Source: Pseudonocardia sp. N23
GTDB lineage: Bacteria > Actinomycetota > Actinomycetes > Mycobacteriales > Pseudonocardiaceae
Length of the DNA stretch: 64,000 nt
Direction: 5' to 3'
Assembly (NCBI RefSeq): GCF_002583555.1
Contig: NZ_BEGX01000052.1
Span: 266,068 to 330,067 of the forward strand
In this document: positions 7,263-16,392 of the stretch, in pieces
Position numbering within the stretch: the first letter of the stretch is position 1
How the letters are laid out: each line of letters opens with the position of its first letter
Program-made: the position numbers and the translations under genes
The notes under the pieces: model-generated
Databases searched by the model: none
The model's input: the letters and a program-made list of their open reading frames with translations, nothing else
What the model was told of the DNA's origin: nothing

Positions 7263-8156
7263 TCAGTGGGCCCCTGACCGCCGCTGGAGACTGAACGCCG
7301 CGGCTGCGAGATCCTCGCTCGTGCAACTGGAGATGAACAGCGCCGCCACAGCGGTCGGCCTCGATCCGGTCACCAGGTGCCAGGGTCGGGCGATCGGCGT
7401 CCGCGCGACGCGGACCTGGACGAGCCGCCCCTCGGCGAGGTCGTCGGCGACCGCGTCGGCATGCACCAGGGTCACGCCGAGGCCCGCCTTCGCGCCGGCG
7501 ATGACGGCACCCAGCGACCCCAGTGTCAGGGTGTGGGGATCGGCGTTGGCCTGGTCGAACAAGGACAGCGTGGTCTCGAGCGTTCCCGAACCCGGACCAC
7601 GCATCAACCAGGTGGACTCGAACGGAGCACCCTGGTGCCCGGGCGCGGCGACGACGATCAGCCGGTTCGCGCGGGTGGCCCCGATCAAGAGTCCGGAGCC
7701 GCGCGGCGGGCGACCGGCGAAGACGACGTCCAGCTCGTGGCTGCGGATGGCGGTGAAGAGGTCGTCGCGGGGACTCACGGCGAGCGACACCTGCACGTCC
7801 GGATAGTGCGCGCGAAAGCGACCCAGCAGAGTCGGCACCAGGTACTCGCTCGCGGTGCCGACCGCTCCGAGACGGAGCTGACCCAGCCCCGCCCGCCGCA
7901 CCGCCATCGCCGACTCCTCGAGCAGGCCCAGGATCTGTCGGCAGTAGTCGACGTACACCCGGCCCGCTTCGGTCATGACGATCCCGCGTCCCGACTTCGC
8001 TGTGAGCTGGGTGTGGAGCTGTCGCTCCATGCTCGTGATCGCGGCCGACACCGCCGGTTCCGACACATGCAGCTGCGCGGCTGCCGCCCGGACGCTGCCG
8101 GCGTCCGCCACTGCCACGAACGTCCGCATCCGTGACCAGGTGACCGGCTGCTCCAT
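7263..8156 (-). CDS. LysR-family transcriptional regulator, CbbR-like candidate
   Basis: This 297-residue protein has an N-terminal winged helix-turn-helix (about 8-66; MRTFVAVADAGSVRAAAAQL, then SEPAVSAAITSMERQL) and a LysR effector-binding domain (about 90-290). It is the last gene in the same direction as the carboxysome genes, after a 143-base gap, and may have its own promoter. CbbR regulators control RuBisCO operons and often sense Calvin-cycle metabolites, but they are usually divergent from cbbL. I infer a CbbR role from position and general similarity. Another LysR target cannot be excluded. Confidence 0.7.
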   Translation of the reverse strand: MEQPVTWSRMRTFVAVADAGSVRAAAAQLHVSEPAVSAAITSMERQLHTQLTAKSGRGIVMTEAGRVYVDYCRQILGLLEESAMAVRRAGLGQLRLGAVGTASEYLVPTLLGRFRAHYPDVQVSLAVSPRDDLFTAIRSHELDVVFAGRPPRGSGLLIGATRANRLIVVAAPGHQGAPFESTWLMRGPGSGTLETTLSLFDQANADPHTLTLGSLGAVIAGAKAGLGVTLVHADAVADDLAEGRLVQVRVARTPIARPWHLVTGSRPTAVAALFISSCTSEDLAAAAFSLQRRSGAH

Positions 8157-8299
8157 GGCGGGAGCATAACTGGCGTGTGGAGAGTACGACCGGATGGTTC
8201 ACTGTCAGGTTCATCGTTGTCCCCGCCGATGTTCACGGGTTGTCACGCGCGAGGACACCACTCAGCGACGGGCTCGCACTCCGACCCGGGAAGCGCCGG

Positions 8300-9292
8300 T
8301 CACGTACGTGCGACTGCCGGGATCGAGACGCGGTCGATGTCGACCGCCACTCCCGTCGCCCCCGCCGCGATCGCGGGCCCGAGATCGTCGGGCCCCAGGC
8401 CGCCTCGGGCGAAGACCTGCAGCGGGCCGGCCTCGACGAGCCTTCGCAGCCCGTCCCAACCCAGCGGCTCATGAGCAGGACGTGCAGGAGTCGGCAGCAC
8501 CGGCGATACGAGCGCCGCGTCGGCACCCAGCGCAGTGGCCCGAGCGAGGTCGCCGGAGTGGTGGACCGAGACCACCCACAGCGGGATGGGGGGACGCTCC
8601 GTCGCAGCCGACAGGGCCGTCGCGCCGGTGTGCAACCCGTCGGCCCCGGACTGCAGAGCCTCCAGGGGCGTTCCCGAGAGCACCAGCCTCAGCCCCGTTC
8701 CTCGGCTCACCCGCATCAGCCGACGACCGAGTTGCACCCGCTGCGCCGACGCGAGATCAGGCGCGCGCACGATCAGGAGGCGCACACCCCGAGTTGCCAG
8801 GGTGGGGATCTGATCCATGAGGTTCCCGGGACCGTCGGGGCCGCGGTCCACGCGGGCGACAGCCATCAGGTCGGGCAGGCCCAGGGCCGTCATGGCCAGT
8901 TCGTTGCTGGGCAGCAGCGGACCCACCGCAGGTTGCCGCGGATCCACCCATGCCAGCCGCTGCCCCTCCCGACCGGTGGGGTCGCCGGACCAGGAGCGCA
9001 CGTGGAAGAGGTGGATGCGCAGACGCGCGGACGCGAAGTCGTGCGTGTGGACCCGCCAGGGTTCGAGCTCCTGGACGCGGACACCGAGCTCCTCCCAGAG
9101 CTCTCGCACCGCGGCCTGGGCAGGCGTCTCCCCGGGATCGATCTTCCCGCCGGGGAGCTCCCAGTAGCCGGCGCCGACCGTGCCGGGCCGACGTTCCGCG
9201 AGCAGAACCCTGCCATCGGAGGAACGGACGACTCCGACCGCGACATCGACCTCGGGACGCCCTACCGGGGCGCGACGACGACCGGGCAGCAC
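8300..9292 (-). CDS. MutT (Nudix)-TenI/thiamine-phosphate-synthase-like fusion protein
   Basis: This 330-residue protein has two domains. Residues about 14-140 form a Nudix hydrolase with a complete Nudix box, starting GGKIDPGETPAQAAVRELW and ending EELGV. Residues about 145-325 resemble the TIM-barrel of TenI/ThiE (motifs SVHHSGDLARATALGADAAL, SPVLPT, FARGGLGPDDL). The same fusion is known from proteobacteria, where the MutT part cleans oxidised nucleotides. Its GTG start overlaps the upstream stop by one base, so it belongs to the carboxysome operon. A role in removing damaged nucleotides or sugar-phosphate inhibitors near RuBisCO is speculation. Confidence 0.8.
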   Translation of the reverse strand: MLPGRRRAPVGRPEVDVAVGVVRSSDGRVLLAERRPGTVGAGYWELPGGKIDPGETPAQAAVRELWEELGVRVQELEPWRVHTHDFASARLRIHLFHVRSWSGDPTGREGQRLAWVDPRQPAVGPLLPSNELAMTALGLPDLMAVARVDRGPDGPGNLMDQIPTLATRGVRLLIVRAPDLASAQRVQLGRRLMRVSRGTGLRLVLSGTPLEALQSGADGLHTGATALSAATERPPIPLWVVSVHHSGDLARATALGADAALVSPVLPTPARPAHEPLGWDGLRRLVEAGPLQVFARGGLGPDDLGPAIAAGATGVAVDIDRVSIPAVART

Positions 9293-9549
9293 TAGTCCGG
9301 CCAGACCCGCTCTGAATGCAGGATTCCGGGACGGCGCGGCGGCACCGCCTGTTCGGGCGACTCCGGCTCGGCCACCTCCTGCTCGGCCACCGGCTCAACT
9401 ACCTCCGGCTCGCCGGGCGCGGCGTCCGTCGAAGCCGTGTCGTCCGCCGGTGTCGAACCGGTCGATGTGCTGTCGGCGTCCGCGGCAGCCGTTCGGCGCC
9501 GCCTCGGCCGGCCGGCGGCAGCTCCTGCCGAGCGTGCTCGGGGTGGCAT
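9292..9549 (-). CDS. Small disordered acidic/Pro-rich protein of the carboxysome operon; McdB-like candidate
   Basis: This is an 85-residue protein with no recognisable domain. The N-terminus is basic (RPRRRR at about 14-19). The middle is low-complexity and acidic (Ser, Thr, Glu, Pro, Val). The last 14 residues, RRPGILHSERVWPD, include the only Trp, three residues from the end. It starts one base after the acRAF stop and its own stop overlaps the next gene. Alpha-carboxysome positioning proteins (McdB) are small and disordered and, as I recall, carry a conserved Trp near the C-terminus, often close to acRAF. The McdB reading is an inference. No ParA-type McdA is in the window. Confidence 0.5.
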   Translation of the reverse strand: MPPRARSAGAAAGRPRRRRTAAADADSTSTGSTPADDTASTDAAPGEPEVVEPVAEQEVAEPESPEQAVPPRRPGILHSERVWPD

Positions 9550-9550
9550 C

Positions 9551-9826
9551 TCAGACAGCTTCCTTCGCAGAATAGGCCCCGGCGCGGACGGCGAACTCCC
9601 GCTCTTCCGCGCCGACTGCTCCTCCGTCGGGCCCGTTCACCGTCACGCGGACGTGGGTGCGGGCGAAAGCGAGATCCGGGTACAGTCCCAATTCCTTCGA
9701 CAGCTCCTCGAGAAATGTGAGGAATCGACGCGTCTCGTCGTAGGTGTCGAACTCGAATCGGCGGTGCAACAACGATGGCCGCTCGGACTCAGTCCAGCCC
9801 GCGGGCACCGGGGACTCCGTCGTCAT
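9551..9826 (-). CDS. acRAF, pterin-dehydratase-like RuBisCO assembly factor
   Basis: This 91-residue protein has the pterin-4a-carbinolamine dehydratase fold. In true dehydratases the catalytic centre carries a His-His-Pro motif. Here the equivalent place reads ELGLYPDLAFARTHVRVTV, so both His are gone. That loss is the hallmark of the alpha-carboxysome RuBisCO assembly factor, which helps assemble CbbL8S8. It lies downstream of the shell genes, as in proteobacterial cso loci. I chose ATG 9826 with a GAGGG ribosome site, although the frame is open upstream. The gene is separated from csoS1 by a strong hairpin. Confidence 0.8.
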   Translation of the reverse strand: MTTESPVPAGWTESERPSLLHRRFEFDTYDETRRFLTFLEELSKELGLYPDLAFARTHVRVTVNGPDGGAVGAEEREFAVRAGAYSAKEAV

Positions 9827-9856
9827 CACGTCCCTCTCTGTTGGGTGAAAATGGTC

Positions 9857-9890
9857 GCCGGCGCCAGCCGAGAATACGGCTGGCGCCGGC
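9857..9890 (-). terminator. Strong GC hairpin between csoS1 and acRAF (terminator or processing stem)
   Basis: A perfect 14-bp stem, GCCGGCGCCAGCCG at 9857-9870 pairing with 9877-9890, surrounds a 6-base loop. Reading on the minus strand, the stem is followed by GACCATTTTC with a short T-run. It lies in the only sizeable gap (9827-9954) inside the carboxysome operon. It could terminate most transcripts after the shell genes or stabilise the upstream mRNA, so that acRAF and later genes are made in smaller amounts. Confidence 0.75.
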
Positions 9891-9954
9891 CGCACTGGAG
9901 AGCCTCTGCTCAGCCGACGGGAGCGCTGGGCTGGTTCGGCACAGGCGTGAAGAA

Positions 9955-10287
9955 CTACCGCGCGGGGGTCTGACCGGCGGCGGGGTCGTTCTCGCCGGCG
10001 GGCAGGATCTGCTCCACCTCACTGTGCGGGCGGGCGATGATGTGTGCGGCAGCGAGGCCGTCACCAACCCGCTCGCAGGCGTCGGCGCCGGCGCGGACCG
10101 CAGCGTTGACCGCACCGGTCTCACCGCGGACCAGGATGGTGACGTACCCGCCACCGACGAACTGGCGCCCGATGAGCCGCACCTCAGAAGCCTTGGTCAT
10201 GGCGTCGGCCGCCTCGATGGCCGGCACGAGCCCCCGGGTCTCGATCATCCCGAGTGCGATGCCGAACCTCTCGTCGCTGCGCGTCAT
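9955..10287 (-). CDS. csoS1: Carboxysome shell protein CsoS1 (BMC-H hexamer)
   Basis: This 110-residue single BMC domain has the canonical N-terminus GIALGMIETRGLVPAIEAAD and the pore-facing VRLIGRQFVGGGYVTILVRG. The AAHIIARPHSEVE segment near the end is the usual CsoS1 finish, followed by an acidic, Gln-rich tail of about 15 residues. Such hexamers tile the carboxysome facets. The ATG at 10287 has a strong GGAAGG ribosome site; in-frame codons further upstream lack one. This is the only BMC-H gene seen; proteobacterial cso loci usually carry two or three paralogues. Confidence 0.95.
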   Translation of the reverse strand: MTRSDERFGIALGMIETRGLVPAIEAADAMTKASEVRLIGRQFVGGGYVTILVRGETGAVNAAVRAGADACERVGDGLAAAHIIARPHSEVEQILPAGENDPAAGQTPAR

Positions 10288-10354
10288 TACTTTCCTTCCT
10301 TCGGACATTCGAGATGTGAACTCTGGTATTGGTCGTACGGAGTGGAGCCGAGAC

Positions 10355-10615
10355 TCATGAGCGCCAACGCTCTTCACTCCAGTGGTCGATGATTCCGCCG
10401 ATCGTCAGATCGGTCGTGATCGCTGCGTTGCCGGCCGCGTAACGCGCCGCCGACGTCGCAATGGTGAAGACGAAGTCTCCGGGCTTGGTTCCGACCGGGT
10501 CGGTGGCCACCTCGACATTGCCGCGGTCGTCCTCGACCACCTGCAACGACGTGAAGCCCAGTCCCGCGACCTGCTCGGTGGCGACGAGGTCGCGGGCGAC
10601 CCGCTGGATCCTCAT
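10355..10615 (-). CDS. csoS4B: Carboxysome vertex protein CsoS4B (BMC-P pentamer)
   Basis: This 86-residue EutN/CcmL/CsoS4 fold protein caps the twelve vertices of the icosahedral shell. The features are the MRIQRVARDLVAT start, the VDPVG-like ATDPVGTKPGDFVF segment and the SAARYA motif followed by LTIGGIIDHW. Its ATG overlaps the upstream csoS4A stop (ATGA), so translation is coupled. It differs clearly from CsoS4A, and the two adjacent genes match the usual cso order. Confidence 0.93.
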   Translation of the reverse strand: MRIQRVARDLVATEQVAGLGFTSLQVVEDDRGNVEVATDPVGTKPGDFVFTIATSAARYAAGNAAITTDLTIGGIIDHWSEERWRS

Positions 10616-10914
10616 CCCTTCGCTCCGCCGCCGGACCCGCGGGCCGACGCCTGACCGGAGGGATGCTCGTCGTCCCAGTAGTCGATGATGCCGACGATCG
10701 TCAGGTCACTCGGGTACTCCTTGCTGCCGGCGGCATCACGCGCCGCAGAGCTGCCGACCGCGATCACCCAGTCACCCGGCTTGCAGCCCACCGGGTCGAC
10801 CGCGACCTGCTTGCTGCTCGACCCGCGCTCCTGGACCACGAGCAGCCGGTGCCGGTCGAGGTTGCCGATGCGGGCGGTCGCGACGAGCGTCCCTTCGACT
10901 CTGAAGACCTTCAT
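10612..10914 (-). CDS. csoS4A: Carboxysome vertex protein CsoS4A (BMC-P pentamer)
   Basis: This 100-residue BMC-P protein begins MKVFRVEGTLVATARIG and contains AVDPVGCKPGDWVIAVGSSA and LTIVGIIDYW, the signature of vertex pentamers. Compared with CsoS4B it has a Gly/Ser-rich C-terminal tail of about 20 residues. It follows csoS2 after a gap of about 60 bases. In proteobacterial operons the carbonic anhydrase gene csoSCA sits exactly between csoS2 and csoS4A, and here it is missing. Confidence 0.93.
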   Translation of the reverse strand: MKVFRVEGTLVATARIGNLDRHRLLVVQERGSSSKQVAVDPVGCKPGDWVIAVGSSAARDAAGSKEYPSDLTIVGIIDYWDDEHPSGQASARGSGGGAKG

Positions 10915-10975
10915 GCGTGCGCTGCCTCCTTCGGTCGTCCGAGGGTCGAGGTGCTGATCGCCGGTGCGACGGACG

Positions 10976-13231
10976 TCATGCCGACGCACCACCGGACAGG
11001 GTGATCCGGCTGGTCGTGTTGGTGGTCTGGCCCGACTGCCCGGTGATGTTCTGGCGCCGCTCCGACGGCGTGGACTTCTCACGGAAGCGGGTCGCGCCGG
11101 CCCAGGCGTGCGACTCACCACGGGCCTCGGTCGGGTTGCGCCCGGCCGAGATGTAGCCCTCGGTACCGGTGACCAGCTTGTTCGACGTCCACGCCGACCC
11201 GGTCACCTCGCGACCCTCGGTGCTTCCCTCGCCGGTGATCGACGTCGGCGGGGCGTCGCGACGCCGCCGGGGCCGGAAGACGAACTCGTTGTTGCCGGTG
11301 ACCTTGCCCTCGGCGACAGCGAACGAACCCGTGACGCGATCCTGGTCCGACGCACCGTCCGGCACCTCGCCGGGGCCGCCGCGGCGGGCCAACGCGATCG
11401 GGAACGAGGAATCGGCCGACCATGGCCCCGGCACCGGCTCGGCAGCCCGCATGTCGTGGTGGTAGGACGTCCCGGTCACTGCTTGCGACCGACCGCGCTC
11501 GGTTCCCGTCACCGCCTCGGCGTGCATCGGCACGTCGCCGGTCACGGCCACACCTCCGGCGCGTGCGTCCAGTCGTTGCCCGGCCGCGTCACCTTCCGCG
11601 GTCTCACACCAGCCGATCGCGGTCCCCGGGCCCTGGTAAGGGGTACCGGTCACCGGTCGGCACGAGCCGGGCTCGTCCCCGGTGACGTTCGGGCTGTGCT
11701 CCACGTTCGGGCCGGTCACACGCTGTCCACGCCAGGTCAGCGCCTCCGTCACCTTGCCCCCGGTCACCGGGTCCAGCCGCGACCCGCCATGACCGGCTGC
11801 CGGAGCGGTGACACCGTCGGTGCCGGACCATTCGGTGGCGGACGACGGCCGCTGGTACTGGTCACCGGTCAGCGCACGTGATTCGCCGGCCTCGTTGCCG
11901 GTGACGCGCCCGCTGCGCCCCACCGCTGTGCCGGTCACATCCCGACCACCGTCGGAGGTCTCCAACGCCGAACCGGAACGAGGGCTCGGCGCCGGTCGCG
12001 GATCGTTCTTCCGCGGGAACTGCGCCTTCCGCGGGAACTGCCCCGAGCGATGACCGGCCGCCCCACTGCGCGGCGTGAGGTCGTCGTCGACCTTCTGGTC
12101 CGCCTCCCCGGTGATGGCGATGTGCTCGCCGAACTCGTCACCGGTGATCGCCACCTGGCTCCGCACCGCCGTACCCGACACGACCAGGCCCTTCGCGGTG
12201 CGCACCAGGCCGACCTTCGGCTTACCGGACACCGACTCCGCGGAACCGTCGGGGACGTACTGCGACCCCGACACCGCCATCCCGCGCCCGGGCTCGTCAC
12301 CGGTCACCCGGACACCCGGACCGATTCGCACCCCGGTCACGCGCAGCCCGCCCTGGGTCGGCGACTCGAGCACCTTCGGCGCGTTGCCGAGCTGTCCCCC
12401 ACGTTCTGGGCGGACCCGGCCGGAACCGGTCGCCTGCGCCGATGCCTCGGCGCCGGCGTTCAGACCACGCTTGCCCTGCGTCAGCTGCCGGCGCCGCTGC
12501 CGTGCCGAGGCCCGGCCCAGCTGCGCGTCGGCCACTGCACCGGACCCGGCCGGAGCCGGAGCAGGCGCCGGGGAGGCGGGCACCGGCGCCACGACGGCAC
12601 CGTTCAGACCACGCTTGCCCTGCGACAGCTGCCGACGACGCTGCAGCGAGGACGCCCGGCCCAGCTGCGCGTCAGCGACCGCACCCGACCCCGAGGCGCC
12701 GGAAAGGGGCGCGGCGACCGGCGCCACGACGGCACCGTTCAGACCACGCTTGCCCTGCGACAGCTGTCGACGACGCTGCAGCGAGGACGCCCGGCCCAGC
12801 TGCGCGTCGGCCACCGCACCCGACGCGGCCCGGATCGGAGCCGGGCTCGGCGACGACACGACGGCGTGCACCCGCATCGGAGCCGAGTCGCTGAGCGACA
12901 ACACATGACGCCGCGCCTTGGCCGCCGTGCGGCGGCCGGCTGTGGATTCCGGCGCGGCCGGAGCAGCCGACGCGGCGGGAGAGGGACTACCCGCCGACGC
13001 CAGGTGCCGCCGCGCCTTGGCCGAAATACGGCCGCCACCTGCGGTACGCGAGCCGGCCCCAGCCGGGGACACAACGCTGGGCGAAGGCACGCGAGCCGCC
13101 GGTCCCAGCGCCGCACGACCCGCCGACAACGCACGACGCCGCGCCTTGGCTGCGTCGCGGCCACCGGCTGCCGAACCCCTCGCGGCAGCCAACTCATCCG
13201 GGTCTGCGGTCTGCACCGCGTACATGCCCAT
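10976..13231 (-). CDS. csoS2: Carboxysome scaffold protein CsoS2
   Basis: This 751-residue disordered scaffold links RuBisCO to the shell. The N-terminal region (about 1-275) has six basic RuBisCO-binding-type motifs: three looser ones (such as AKARRRALSAGRAAL) and three nearly identical ones around QRRRQLSQGKRGLN. The middle and C-terminal regions carry many VTG repeats (RVTGNEAGES, AVTGTERGRSQAVTGTSY). It ends in the encapsulation peptide SRITLSGGASA. Unlike most CsoS2 proteins it has almost no Cys (one each in DEPGSCRPVTG and GWCETAEG). It starts 4 bases after cbbS. There is no sign of the internal frameshift known from some CsoS2 genes. Confidence 0.95.
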   Translation of the reverse strand: MGMYAVQTADPDELAAARGSAAGGRDAAKARRRALSAGRAALGPAARVPSPSVVSPAGAGSRTAGGGRISAKARRHLASAGSPSPAASAAPAAPESTAGRRTAAKARRHVLSLSDSAPMRVHAVVSSPSPAPIRAASGAVADAQLGRASSLQRRRQLSQGKRGLNGAVVAPVAAPLSGASGSGAVADAQLGRASSLQRRRQLSQGKRGLNGAVVAPVPASPAPAPAPAGSGAVADAQLGRASARQRRRQLTQGKRGLNAGAEASAQATGSGRVRPERGGQLGNAPKVLESPTQGGLRVTGVRIGPGVRVTGDEPGRGMAVSGSQYVPDGSAESVSGKPKVGLVRTAKGLVVSGTAVRSQVAITGDEFGEHIAITGEADQKVDDDLTPRSGAAGHRSGQFPRKAQFPRKNDPRPAPSPRSGSALETSDGGRDVTGTAVGRSGRVTGNEAGESRALTGDQYQRPSSATEWSGTDGVTAPAAGHGGSRLDPVTGGKVTEALTWRGQRVTGPNVEHSPNVTGDEPGSCRPVTGTPYQGPGTAIGWCETAEGDAAGQRLDARAGGVAVTGDVPMHAEAVTGTERGRSQAVTGTSYHHDMRAAEPVPGPWSADSSFPIALARRGGPGEVPDGASDQDRVTGSFAVAEGKVTGNNEFVFRPRRRRDAPPTSITGEGSTEGREVTGSAWTSNKLVTGTEGYISAGRNPTEARGESHAWAGATRFREKSTPSERRQNITGQSGQTTNTTSRITLSGGASA
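12458..12824 (-). repeat. Three tandem copies of a csoS2 RuBisCO-binding module
   Basis: Near-identical stretches of about 88 bases start at 12458, 12602 and 12737 (periods 144 and 135 bases). Each encodes SGAVADAQLGRAS followed by QRRRQL(S/T)QGKRGLN. The second and third are almost identical even at silent positions, which points to recent duplication or gene conversion. Alanine/proline linkers of differing length separate them. Confidence 0.9.
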
Positions 13232-13234
13232 GGG

Positions 13235-13573
13235 TCAGCGAGCCCCGTAGACGACGAAGGCCGTGCCCTGCGACTGCGTGAAGTTGTCGTACGCGATCAG
13301 GCGCACGAGGTGACCGGGATTGGCCCGGTGGCACGCCTCGAGCTCGCTCAGGACCCGGTCCACCGACTTCTCACCGAAGAACGGCAGCTTCCACAGGTAC
13401 CAGAAGTTCGAGCCGGCCTTCTCGGGCTCGGTGTGCTCGACCGCCGGGTTCCATCCCTGCTGGAGCAGATAGGTGATCTGCGCACGCATGCGCTCGGGCG
13501 TCATCGGCGGAAGGTAGGAGAACGTTTCGACGCGCCCCGTCGTGGGCCCGTAGGCTTCCATGGTCATGTCCAT
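13235..13573 (-). CDS. cbbS: RuBisCO small subunit, Form IA (carboxysomal)
   Basis: This 112-residue small subunit includes [20 protein letters not shown], the [14 protein letters not shown] segment and a C-terminal [17 protein letters not shown]. These are typical of green-type Form IA small subunits from alpha-carboxysomes. It lies 44 bases downstream of cbbL and 4 bases before csoS2. ATG 13573 has an AGAGAG ribosome site; a second in-frame ATG at 13567 is possible. It assembles with CbbL as L8S8. Confidence 0.96.
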
Positions 13574-13617
13574 CTCTCTGTGAGGGCTCGGGGGCCGGAT
13601 CGGGCAGCCGGGTCACG

Positions 13618-15030
13618 TCAGGCGTCGAGCTTGTCCACCGTGTCGAACTCGAACTTGATTTCCTTCCAGGTGTCCAGAGCGACGGCCAGCTCCGGGCTGT
13701 GCCGGGCCGCCTCGGTGAGGATCTCCCGACCCTCACGCTCCACCGCGCGGCCCTGGTTGCGTGCTTCCACGCATGCCTCGAGCGCGACCCGGTTCGCGTG
13801 CGCCCCCGCCGCGTTGCCCCACGGGTGACCCAGCGTGCCGCCACCGAACTGCAGGCAGGAGTCGTCACCGAAGATCGCCACCAGCGCGGGCATGTGCCAG
13901 ACGTGGATACCGCCCGAAGCGACCGGCATCACCCCCGGCATCGAACCCCAGTCCTGGTCGAAGAAGATGCCGCGCGAGCGGTTCTCCGGCACGAACGACT
14001 CACGCATGAGGTCGATCCACCCCAGCGTGGCCTGCCGGTCACCCTCGAGCTTGCCCACCACCGTGCCCGAGTGGAAGTGGTCGCCCCCGGACAACCGCAG
14101 ACACTTGGTCAGGACCCGGAAGTGGATGCCGTGCATCGGGTTGCGGTCGACCACCGCGTGCATCGCCCGGTGGATGTGCAGCAGCATGCCGTTCTCGCGG
14201 CACCAGTTCGCCAACCCGGTGTTGGCCGTGAAGCCTGCGGTGAAGAAGTCGTGCATGATGATCGGCGCGCCGAGCGACTTCGCGTACTCGGCCCGCTTGT
14301 ACATCTCTTCCGGCGTCGCCGCCGTGACGTTCAGGTAGTGGCCCTTCTTCTCACCGGTCTCGGCCTCGGCCTTCTGCACGGCCTCCATCACGAAGTCGAA
14401 CCGGTGGTTCCAGCGCATGAACGGCTGGCTGCCGATGTTCTCGTCGTCCTTGGTGAAGTCCAGACCACCACGCAGGCACTCGTAGACCGCCCGGCCGTAG
14501 TTCTTGGCCGACAGACCGAGCTTCGGCTTGATCGTGCAGCCCAGCAGCGGACGCCCGTACTTGTTGAGCCGGTCGCGCTCGACCTGAATTCCCTGCGGCG
14601 GACCACCACAGGTCTTCACGTACGCCAGGGGGAACCGGATGTCCTCCAGTCGCAGGCTGCGGATCGCCTTGAACCCGAACACGTTGCCGACCAGCGAGGT
14701 CAGCACGTTGACGACCGAGCCCTCCTCGAAGAGGTCGATCGGGTAGGCGATGAACGCGAAGAACGCGGTGTCGTCGCCCGGAACGTTCTCGATCCGGTAG
14801 CACCGACCCTTGTAGTAGTCCAGGTCGGTCAGCAGGTCGGTCCACACCGTGGTCCACGTCCCGGTGGAGGACTCCGCCGCCACCGCCGCCGCGGCCTCCT
14901 CACGAGGCACACCCTCCTGCGCAACGACCTTGAACACCGCGAGCAGATCCGTGTCCAACGGCTCGTAGTCCGGCGTCCAGTAGGTAGCGGCGTAGTCCTT
15001 CACGCCGGCCTTGTAGGTCTTGTCTGACAC
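13618..15030 (-). CDS. cbbL: RuBisCO large subunit, Form IA (carboxysomal)
   Basis: This 470-residue large subunit fixes CO2 onto ribulose-1,5-bisphosphate. All key sites are intact: the [16 protein letters not shown] motif, the carbamylated Lys and Mg ligands in [11 protein letters not shown], the HIHRAMHAV His, and loop 6 [11 protein letters not shown]. The N-terminus [19 protein letters not shown] marks Form IA, distinct from the red-type Form IC usual in actinobacteria. It starts at GTG 15030 after GAGGAGAG. It is the first gene of the carboxysome operon. No activase (CbbX or CbbQO) is nearby. Confidence 0.97.
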
Positions 15031-15205: not shown

Positions 15206-15594
15206 TGCCCCCTGGACCGACAACACGGATCTGCCGTCAGGGTCGCGAACGTCAGCGTTCGCACGACGTCGATGGACGACGAGGCAGCGCCGACATAGTC
15301 GTCGCCATCCCGACCACACCACACCCCCCGGACAGGGGATATCGGTGGGCGCCGTCCCCCACCGGCAAGAGGCCGACCGGTCGGCGTCGACGGCGGCCAT
15401 GGTCAAGACGATCCGTCCTCGACGTCGACCATCTTCGGCCCCCACACCTCCCAGTAGGTGTCGCGGGGGTGCGGGTCGTCGGTGAACTCGACCGAGACCG
15501 GCCAACCGTTTCGCCGGCAGTAGTCGATCTGCAGCGCGATCTCGGCGCCGGTGAGGTCTGGCAGGCAGGAGAAGGCCCCCTGGGCGATGCGCAC
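15179..15594 (-). pseudogene. RuBisCO small subunit, red-type Form IC, frameshifted remnant
   Basis: ATG 15594 opens a frame with [20 protein letters not shown], then [19 protein letters not shown] and [15 protein letters not shown]. This is a classic Form IC small-subunit N-terminus. The frame stops after 63 codons at about 15403. Homology seems to continue in another frame, with MAAVDADRSA and later LVVHRRRANADVRD, ending at 15179. The normal length is about 135-140 residues. It begins 10 bases after the end of the matching broken large-subunit gene, so the original cbbL-cbbS pair decayed together. Confidence 0.8.
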
Positions 15595-15604
15595 GTCGGG
15601 CTCC

Positions 15605-16392
<788 letters not shown>

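Follow-up and report, generated by a model that had tools for sequence, protein, structure and literature searches.

An alpha-carboxysome operon that has lost its carbonic anhydrase gene in Pseudonocardia

In the current model of the carboxysome, a CO2-tight shell requires a carbonic anhydrase inside it, and alpha-carboxysome (cso) loci that are kept by selection without the carbonic anhydrase gene csoSCA test that rule. Loci of this kind have been described: PMC9164163 lists examples from Beta- and Gammaproteobacteria and a single actinobacterial one, that of Pseudonocardia sp. N23, and considers CO2-permeable shells and recruited enzymes as explanations. In Thiomicrospira without csoSCA, an iota-class carbonic anhydrase occurs in the carboxysomes (PMC12628692). 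Here we analyse the cso operon of Pseudonocardia sp. N23 within a 64,000-nucleotide stretch of contig NZ_BEGX01000052.1 (positions 266,068 to 330,067 of the forward strand), which we call the window and whose own numbering we use. A reading of the sequence alone had presented the missing csoSCA as a puzzle, to be answered either by another, recruited enzyme or by a compartment that works differently; the observation stands, but its novelty does not, since PMC9164163 already lists such loci, the Pseudonocardia one included, with the same two alternatives. The window locus is a further member of an already described class. The new parts are its placement in an actinobacterial clade with csoSCA-bearing members, a likely stub of csoSCA, selection figures, and a shortlist of candidate enzymes; our literature search, in which most papers were covered in part, found no treatment of that clade, the stub, the selection figures or the candidate enzymes.

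The canonical operon on a Nitrobacter hamburgensis plasmid (L009) and the window locus have a common order, cbbL-cbbS-csoS2-(csoSCA)-csoS4A-csoS4B-csoS1-acRAF, whereas the adjoining genes of the former (csoSCA, ParA, CbbQ, a NorD/CbbO-type gene and DUF2309, or DabA) were not found in the window locus. The nearest csoSCA-bearing relative in our tree, L012 (Actinomycetota bacterium 0711_bin10, metagenome-assembled), shares the gene order including an McdB-like gene and a Nudix-ThiE fusion, and differs in that an open csoSCA (about 515 codons) separates csoS2 from csoS4A, and in having its LysR gene on the other strand. At CsoS1 positions 36 and 37 the window has I and G, as read by eye in the Halothiobacillus numbering. 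PMC9164163, in contrast, reports unlike residues at these positions in N23, and places the N23 locus among Alpha- and Betaproteobacteria, whereas with our larger set of genomes it groups with actinobacterial loci, the others of which retain csoSCA. In the remaining respects the window locus is akin to the "No csoSCA" loci of that source, N23 among them, with the other cso genes collocated, no csoSCA anywhere, and a second, actinobacterial-type ribulose-1,5-bisphosphate carboxylase/oxygenase (RuBisCO) in the genome. The function of csoSCA has likewise been lost in the Thiomicrospira carboxysomes, where another enzyme is present according to PMC12628692; no such gene was seen here.

The N23 assembly comprises 173 contigs, with a completeness of 99.98% and a contamination of 3.3% (both tool estimates); PMC9164163 excluded genomes of more than 100 scaffolds. 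As judged by open reading frames and family matches, cbbL, cbbS, csoS2, csoS4A, csoS4B, csoS1 and acRAF are complete, in cso order and on the minus strand at the coordinates given in the sequence-only reading, and family matches and gene order bear out its call of an alpha-carboxysome-type operon in an actinobacterium. Its estimate of about 60 bases for the slot in which csoSCA would be expected also holds: 61 bases separate the end of csoS2 (10976) from the start of csoS4A (10914), and this slot is closed sequence midway along a 573-kb contig. A search with Pfam PF08936 gave no match in the window genome and was set aside because its control genomes were silent too. We then relied on two profiles of our own. 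The profile built from ten CsoSCA loci found nothing in the window genome or in Pseudonocardia sp. SCN 73-27, and detected csoSCA in 3/3 control genomes (E 2.9e-240 or better), which are weak controls, being members of the profile themselves. As an independent test, a profile built from two plasmid CsoSCA sequences (Nitrobacter and Thiodictyon) was run against 83 cso loci translated in all six frames, with the window in its entirety among them. This profile detected csoSCA in 72 of the 83 loci (weakest match, 271 bits), missed precisely the eleven loci flagged earlier, one of which (L078) does not cover the slot, and matched no frame of the window. Because it found the other actinobacterial copies (four csoSCA-bearing actinobacterial loci, E 2.2e-116 or better), a csoSCA diverged to the level seen in Actinomycetota would have been detected. 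By both profiles, then, the slot holds no csoSCA, as had been claimed, and the ten-locus profile revealed no copy elsewhere in the window genome. We regard it as hardly credible that the gene is missing merely through assembly gaps or contamination, as the contig number and the estimated contamination might suggest, because the slot is closed sequence, because the identical arrangement with matching flanks occurs in the separate assembly SCN 73-27, and because the genome-wide profile search was negative in both genomes.

Within the genus, csoS2 was found in 2/62 genomes, and within the family in 2/390, namely the window genome and SCN 73-27 only. The latter is metagenome-derived and has the same locus with shared flanking genes (87% DNA identity over 8.2 kb), and all ten frames from cbbL to the LysR gene are open in both. 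Relatives were collected by a scan for CsoS4A using one genome per species (329 pattern matches, 106 confirmed, 80 of the 106 kept), which together with two plasmid loci and the window gave the 83 annotated loci. With L078 excluded from all counts, as its contig begins just before csoS4A, ten of 82 loci are devoid of csoSCA, namely the two Pseudonocardia loci (window and SCN 73-27) and eight more. In a first tree of 69 loci, computed from five concatenated proteins (a 79-row set minus ten near-identical Thioalkalivibrio rows), these ten loci fell in two places. In a more careful tree of 45 loci, the eight formed one clade of Nitrosomonadaceae and kin (100/99), the six actinobacterial cso loci formed another (100/100), and the Pseudonocardia pair was sister to the csoSCA-bearing L012 (98/93). 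Long open csoSCA frames are present in L012, L031, L034 and L039, all of them metagenome bins. Because the pair is sister to a csoSCA-bearing locus inside the actinobacterial clade, csoSCA was lost on the Pseudonocardia branch; its absence is a loss of a gene present in the ancestor. Taken together, the actinobacterial loci sit among proteobacterial ones in the tree, a placement consistent with an older transfer of the cso genes into Actinomycetota followed by the later loss of csoSCA. All ten genes of the window locus have counterparts in L012, so that no substitute enzyme has been added at the locus. The Pseudonocardia pair and L012 thus represent a polarised loss against an otherwise matched gene set, and make a good comparison for carboxysome function without the enzyme.

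The junction between csoS2 and csoS4A may retain a trace of the lost gene. In L012, the start of csoSCA shares an ATGA with the csoS2 stop, and its stop shares another ATGA with the csoS4A start; in both Pseudonocardia loci, these same two overlaps flank a frame of only 22 codons, which carries the csoS4A ribosome-binding site. Over about 15 bases around that site, the end of this frame is similar to the 3' ends of csoSCA in L012 and L031. The window frame scores 25 against each of these two, a value reached in 1 and 5 of 2000 letter shuffles, as compared with 20 against L034 and L039 (70 and 65 of 2000 shuffles) and 14-16 against three proteobacterial loci (401 to 1019 of 2000). The corresponding frame of SCN 73-27 scores 24 and 29 against L012 and L031 (12 and 0 shuffles) and 22 and 20 against L034 and L039 (42 and 112). 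As a control, 30 further upstream regions taken from the window score at most 23 versus the 25 of the stub, and the ribosome-binding site, which is included in the match, accounts for part of the similarity. Sequence comparison thus gives moderate evidence for a csoSCA leftover, which would be consistent with an in-frame internal deletion. We rejected the notion of a working peptide: nine codons differ between the two species, all of them amino-acid-changing and none silent, and there is therefore no sign that the peptide is conserved.

The remaining operon shows a graded pattern of constraint. The ratio of nonsynonymous to synonymous substitutions (dN/dS), counted for a single species pair (the window and SCN 73-27 loci), was 0.05 for csoS1, 0.07 for csoS4A, 0.32 for csoS4B and 0.36 for csoS2 among the shell genes; 0.14, 0.24 and 0.16 for cbbL, cbbS and acRAF, respectively; and 0.14 for the LysR gene, 0.40 for the small McdB-like gene and 0.53 for the Nudix-ThiE fusion. 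In this pair, purifying selection clearly acts on the shell hexamer, on one of the vertex proteins and on RuBisCO. The RuBisCO is of the carboxysomal kind, CbbL being 82.5% identical to the cso CbbL of Nitrobacter hamburgensis, versus 58.7% to the second form I CbbL of the genome, and clustering with cso CbbLs. The N-terminus of CsoS2 carries, by an eye count, six R-rich repeats of the RuBisCO-binding type (motif after PMC9164163). In the CsoS4B of both Pseudonocardia loci, the arginine at position 15 is lost, which is present in 39/39 compared relatives. An excess of Pseudonocardia-specific changes in CsoS4B (8/17) was considered and found not clearly unusual, as L017 has 5/11 and L012 9/32.

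We examined the genome for enzymes and pumps that could supply the compartment. It encodes one beta carbonic anhydrase, of 169 amino acids (aa), and no alpha carbonic anhydrase. Inspection of all nine frames behind 16 hexapeptide matches yielded two gamma-class proteins, each of 174 aa and each with a near-identical counterpart in SCN 73-27. The one on contig C6, adjoining ung and antiporter genes, is best matched by the gamma carbonic anhydrase model (145 bits; cut-off 250); the one on contig C29 is best matched by CaiE/PaaY (126 bits) and reaches 118 bits with the gamma carbonic anhydrase model, all under the cut-offs. Both are distantly related to CcmM of beta-carboxysomes (53 and 46 bits). 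The remaining seven encode GlmU, mannose-1-phosphate guanylyltransferase, a peptide-synthetase terminal domain, DapD, GlgC and two other acyltransferase-like proteins. The sequence-only reading had proposed a check for a beta or gamma enzyme with a targeting tail, and none of the three proteins found has an extension. A search with PF08332, which we take to be the Pfam family of the iota carbonic anhydrases, found nothing in the window genome or SCN 73-27, and gave a signal in 3/14 controls, with no Thiomicrospira among them. DabA was absent from the window genome, SCN 73-27 and L012; the SulP and SbtA transporters were not searched. Overall, DabA occurs in 24 of 50 cso-bearing genomes (a set that includes L012), and in one of the eight csoSCA-less ones. 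We considered a linked loss of csoSCA and DabA (DabA in 1/10 csoSCA-less versus 23/42 csoSCA-bearing genomes) and do not rely on it, because the eight are one clade, the seven that lack DabA have genomes of 1.0-2.0 Mb that are probably incomplete, and DabA is present in the eighth. A second, intact noncarboxysomal form I cbbLS lies on contig C28 near phosphoribulokinase, transketolase and fructose-bisphosphate aldolase genes, which makes carbon fixation plausible.

Both alternatives offered by the sequence-only reading, a recruited enzyme and a different mode of working, remain in contention. Because neither a dedicated carbonic anhydrase nor a DabA-type pump was found, we consider it most likely, with somewhat less than even confidence, that the alpha-carboxysome left after csoSCA loss in Pseudonocardia takes CO2 directly from the cytoplasm and works where CO2 is not scarce. 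An internal deletion would have removed csoSCA, a loss read from the tree, and left the putative in-frame stub; a RuBisCO-filled shell is probably still made, since selection maintains CsoS1, CsoS4A and RuBisCO; cytoplasmic CO2 would enter this shell directly, as in the carboxysome of a csoSCA-null mutant; and the compartment would be used under non-scarce CO2. Carboxysomes of such a mutant were reportedly studied by Dou in 2008. More tentatively, the bicarbonate half of the concentrating mechanism may have been abandoned as a whole, with the inner carbonic anhydrase and DabA gone and the shell selected as a CO2-fed RuBisCO container, perhaps packing or shielding RuBisCO instead of concentrating CO2. 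Several points weigh against CO2 feeding. The strongest is that a CO2-excluding shell without an inner carbonic anhydrase should burden or hinder RuBisCO, and that the genome also has the free, intact form I RuBisCO of contig C28, which could do the work at high CO2. The FVGGGY pore stretch of CsoS1 is unchanged, and csoS4B and csoS2 are less constrained than the other shell genes. A signature of altered permeability, sought as columns common to both csoSCA-less clades in CbbL, CbbS, CsoS4A, CsoS4B and CsoS1, was dropped, as there were 0 such columns (other clade pairs have 0 to 10), and thus no residue in these five proteins sets the two clades apart from the rest. The link between the losses of csoSCA and DabA is weak, because DabA is missing from 19/42 csoSCA-bearing genomes, L012 among them, and present in the csoSCA-less L028. 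Finally, in Thiomicrospira the absence of csoSCA means replacement by another enzyme (PMC12628692).

Alternatively, the shell may recruit a housekeeping carbonic anhydrase that is encoded elsewhere and has no visible tag, either of the 174-aa gamma-class proteins or the 169-aa beta enzyme, a scenario that we doubt but take seriously. All three genes exist in the genome, the two gamma-class proteins have their distant relationship to CcmM, beta-carboxysomes use enzymes of such kind (PMC9164163, section 9), and a heading in PMC12646314 mentions nonspecific shell-protein interactions mediating CsoSCA. However, all three lack extensions and, by eye, R-rich stretches of the CsoS2 type, all lie outside the cso locus, and each is matched in SCN 73-27. 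We slightly favour the CO2-fed shell over recruitment, a balance that the second gamma-class gene does not shift, and with three candidates in the searched families, the recruitment idea is decidable by few experiments. It is improbable that a carbonic anhydrase of an unrecognised type, encoded outside these families, is packaged instead. New classes of carbonic anhydrase are still being found, and in Thiomicrospira carboxysomes an iota enzyme takes the place of CsoSCA (PMC12628692), which would be a parallel, but the cso locus holds no extra gene, and PF08332 was silent in both Pseudonocardia genomes, with the controls described above. We also consider it unlikely that the locus is a decaying leftover that forms no useful compartment. 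The loss of csoSCA, the decay of a neighbouring second cbbLS (Table 1), the looser constraint on csoS4B and csoS2, and the Pseudonocardia-specific residues of csoS4B, with its lost arginine, all point that way; against them stand the ten frames open in both species, the strong constraint on csoS1, csoS4A, cbbL and the regulator, and the persistence of csoSCA-less loci in the Nitrosomonadaceae-type clade (8 loci).

Table 1. Features of the cso locus and its upstream neighbour in the window
Feature	Position	Strand	Basis
LysR-family regulator, CbbR-like	7263..8156	-	Pfam LysR_substrate, E 7.9e-36
Nudix hydrolase - ThiE-like fusion	8300..9292	-	NCBIfam NF006530, 268.8 bits (cut-off 245)
85-aa protein, C-terminus SERVWPD, orphan alpha-McdB-like	9292..9549	-	position and C-terminal [VI]WPD common to relatives
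acRAF-type, pterin-4a-carbinolamine-dehydratase-like RuBisCO assembly factor	9551..9826	-	Pfam Pterin_4a (PF01329), 25.5 bits
csoS1, shell hexamer with FVGGGY pore stretch	9955..10287	-	NCBIfam BMC_CsoS1 (NF053791), 185 bits (cut-off 166)
csoS4B, shell vertex protein	10355..10615	-	NCBIfam TIGR02704, 108.7 bits (cut-off 88.9)
csoS4A, shell vertex protein	10612..10914	-	NCBIfam TIGR02703, 141.2 bits (cut-off 120)
proposed csoSCA relic, 22-codon open reading frame	10911..10979	-	ATG overlaps csoS2 stop (ATGA); TGA overlaps csoS4A start (ATGA)
csoS2, carboxysome scaffold, 751 aa	10976..13231	-	Pfam CsoS2_M (PF12288), 147.6 bits, E 9.3e-43, 4 stretches
cbbS, RuBisCO small subunit, 112 aa	13235..13573	-	Pfam, E 2.9e-35
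cbbL, carboxysomal form I RuBisCO large subunit, 470 aa	13618..15030	-	Pfam RuBisCO_large, E 4.8e-139
remnants of a second cbbL and cbbS of the noncarboxysomal form I type, immediately upstream and outside the working operon	15415..16389	-	tblastn with CbbL and CbbS of contig C28

Some entries of Table 1 call for comment. The acRAF match falls just below the Pfam cut-off of 26, and its position is conserved across relatives. We placed the starts of csoS1 and acRAF at internal ATG codons of longer open frames (9955-10377 and 9551-9895, respectively). For the LysR gene, the top NCBIfam match is CbbR, under the cut-off of that model. Beyond the seven genes of the sequence-only reading, the cluster thus includes this regulator, the Nudix-ThiE fusion and the McdB-like gene. 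The fusion occupies the same position in the csoSCA-bearing L012, L031, L034 and L039, and is a frequent neighbour in this group of cso loci, 33 of 83 having a match of more than 120 bits to the window copy.

The 85-aa protein looks disordered (by eye only), and its C-terminal SERVWPD matches the C-termini of genes adjoining McdA in relatives. An open frame ending in [VIL]WP[DE] occurs in 62 of 83 cso loci, 34 of them with a ParA (McdA) match and 28 without; the [VI]WPD C-terminus is strikingly constant and occurs next to McdA as well as, in many Nudix-ThiE-group loci, where McdA is missing. No McdA (ParA) match was found at the window locus, which was the scope of that search. PMC8262871 describes alpha-McdB as disordered with an invariant C-terminal tryptophan and mentions orphan copies in cso operons. 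By its sequence, the 85-aa gene is best read as encoding an orphan alpha-McdB-like protein, of a known kind.

The decayed cbbL upstream of the operon survives in pieces of changing frame (16389-16030, covering the first 118 aa with 74% identity to the C28 copy; 16004-15954; 15954-15880; and 15874-15611) with a large internal loss, and is followed by a cbbS piece (15594-15415, 63% identity). At the corresponding upstream site, the search of SCN 73-27 yielded just a short scrap of cbbL.

Among the relatives, a CsoS2 module common to Pseudonocardia and the Nitrosomonadaceae-type loci (D-Q-x-x-x-D-D-L ... Q-F-x-R) was considered as a mark of csoSCA-less loci and rejected. It was found in 15/80 CsoS2 proteins, and because six of the 15 carriers have csoSCA (L012, L023, L034, L035, L038 and L041), it is a lineage feature. 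The csoSCA-less L028, a bin labelled gammaproteobacterial, has duplicated shell genes in the order csoS4A-csoS1-csoS1-csoS4A-csoS4B (10001-11617). A multi-repeat gene, RidA-like by eye, lies in or beside csoSCA-less cso loci of the Nitrosomonadaceae type (L069, 11495-12895; L028, 13368-14606).

The window genome also carries a second microcompartment locus (G000:C114:82594-99932), with BMC-domain, EutN/CcmL and aldehyde-dehydrogenase genes, and BMC matches occur on contig 28 of SCN 73-27 as well. This second compartment is perhaps of the ARO type, which PMC8217296 reports in Pseudonocardiales.

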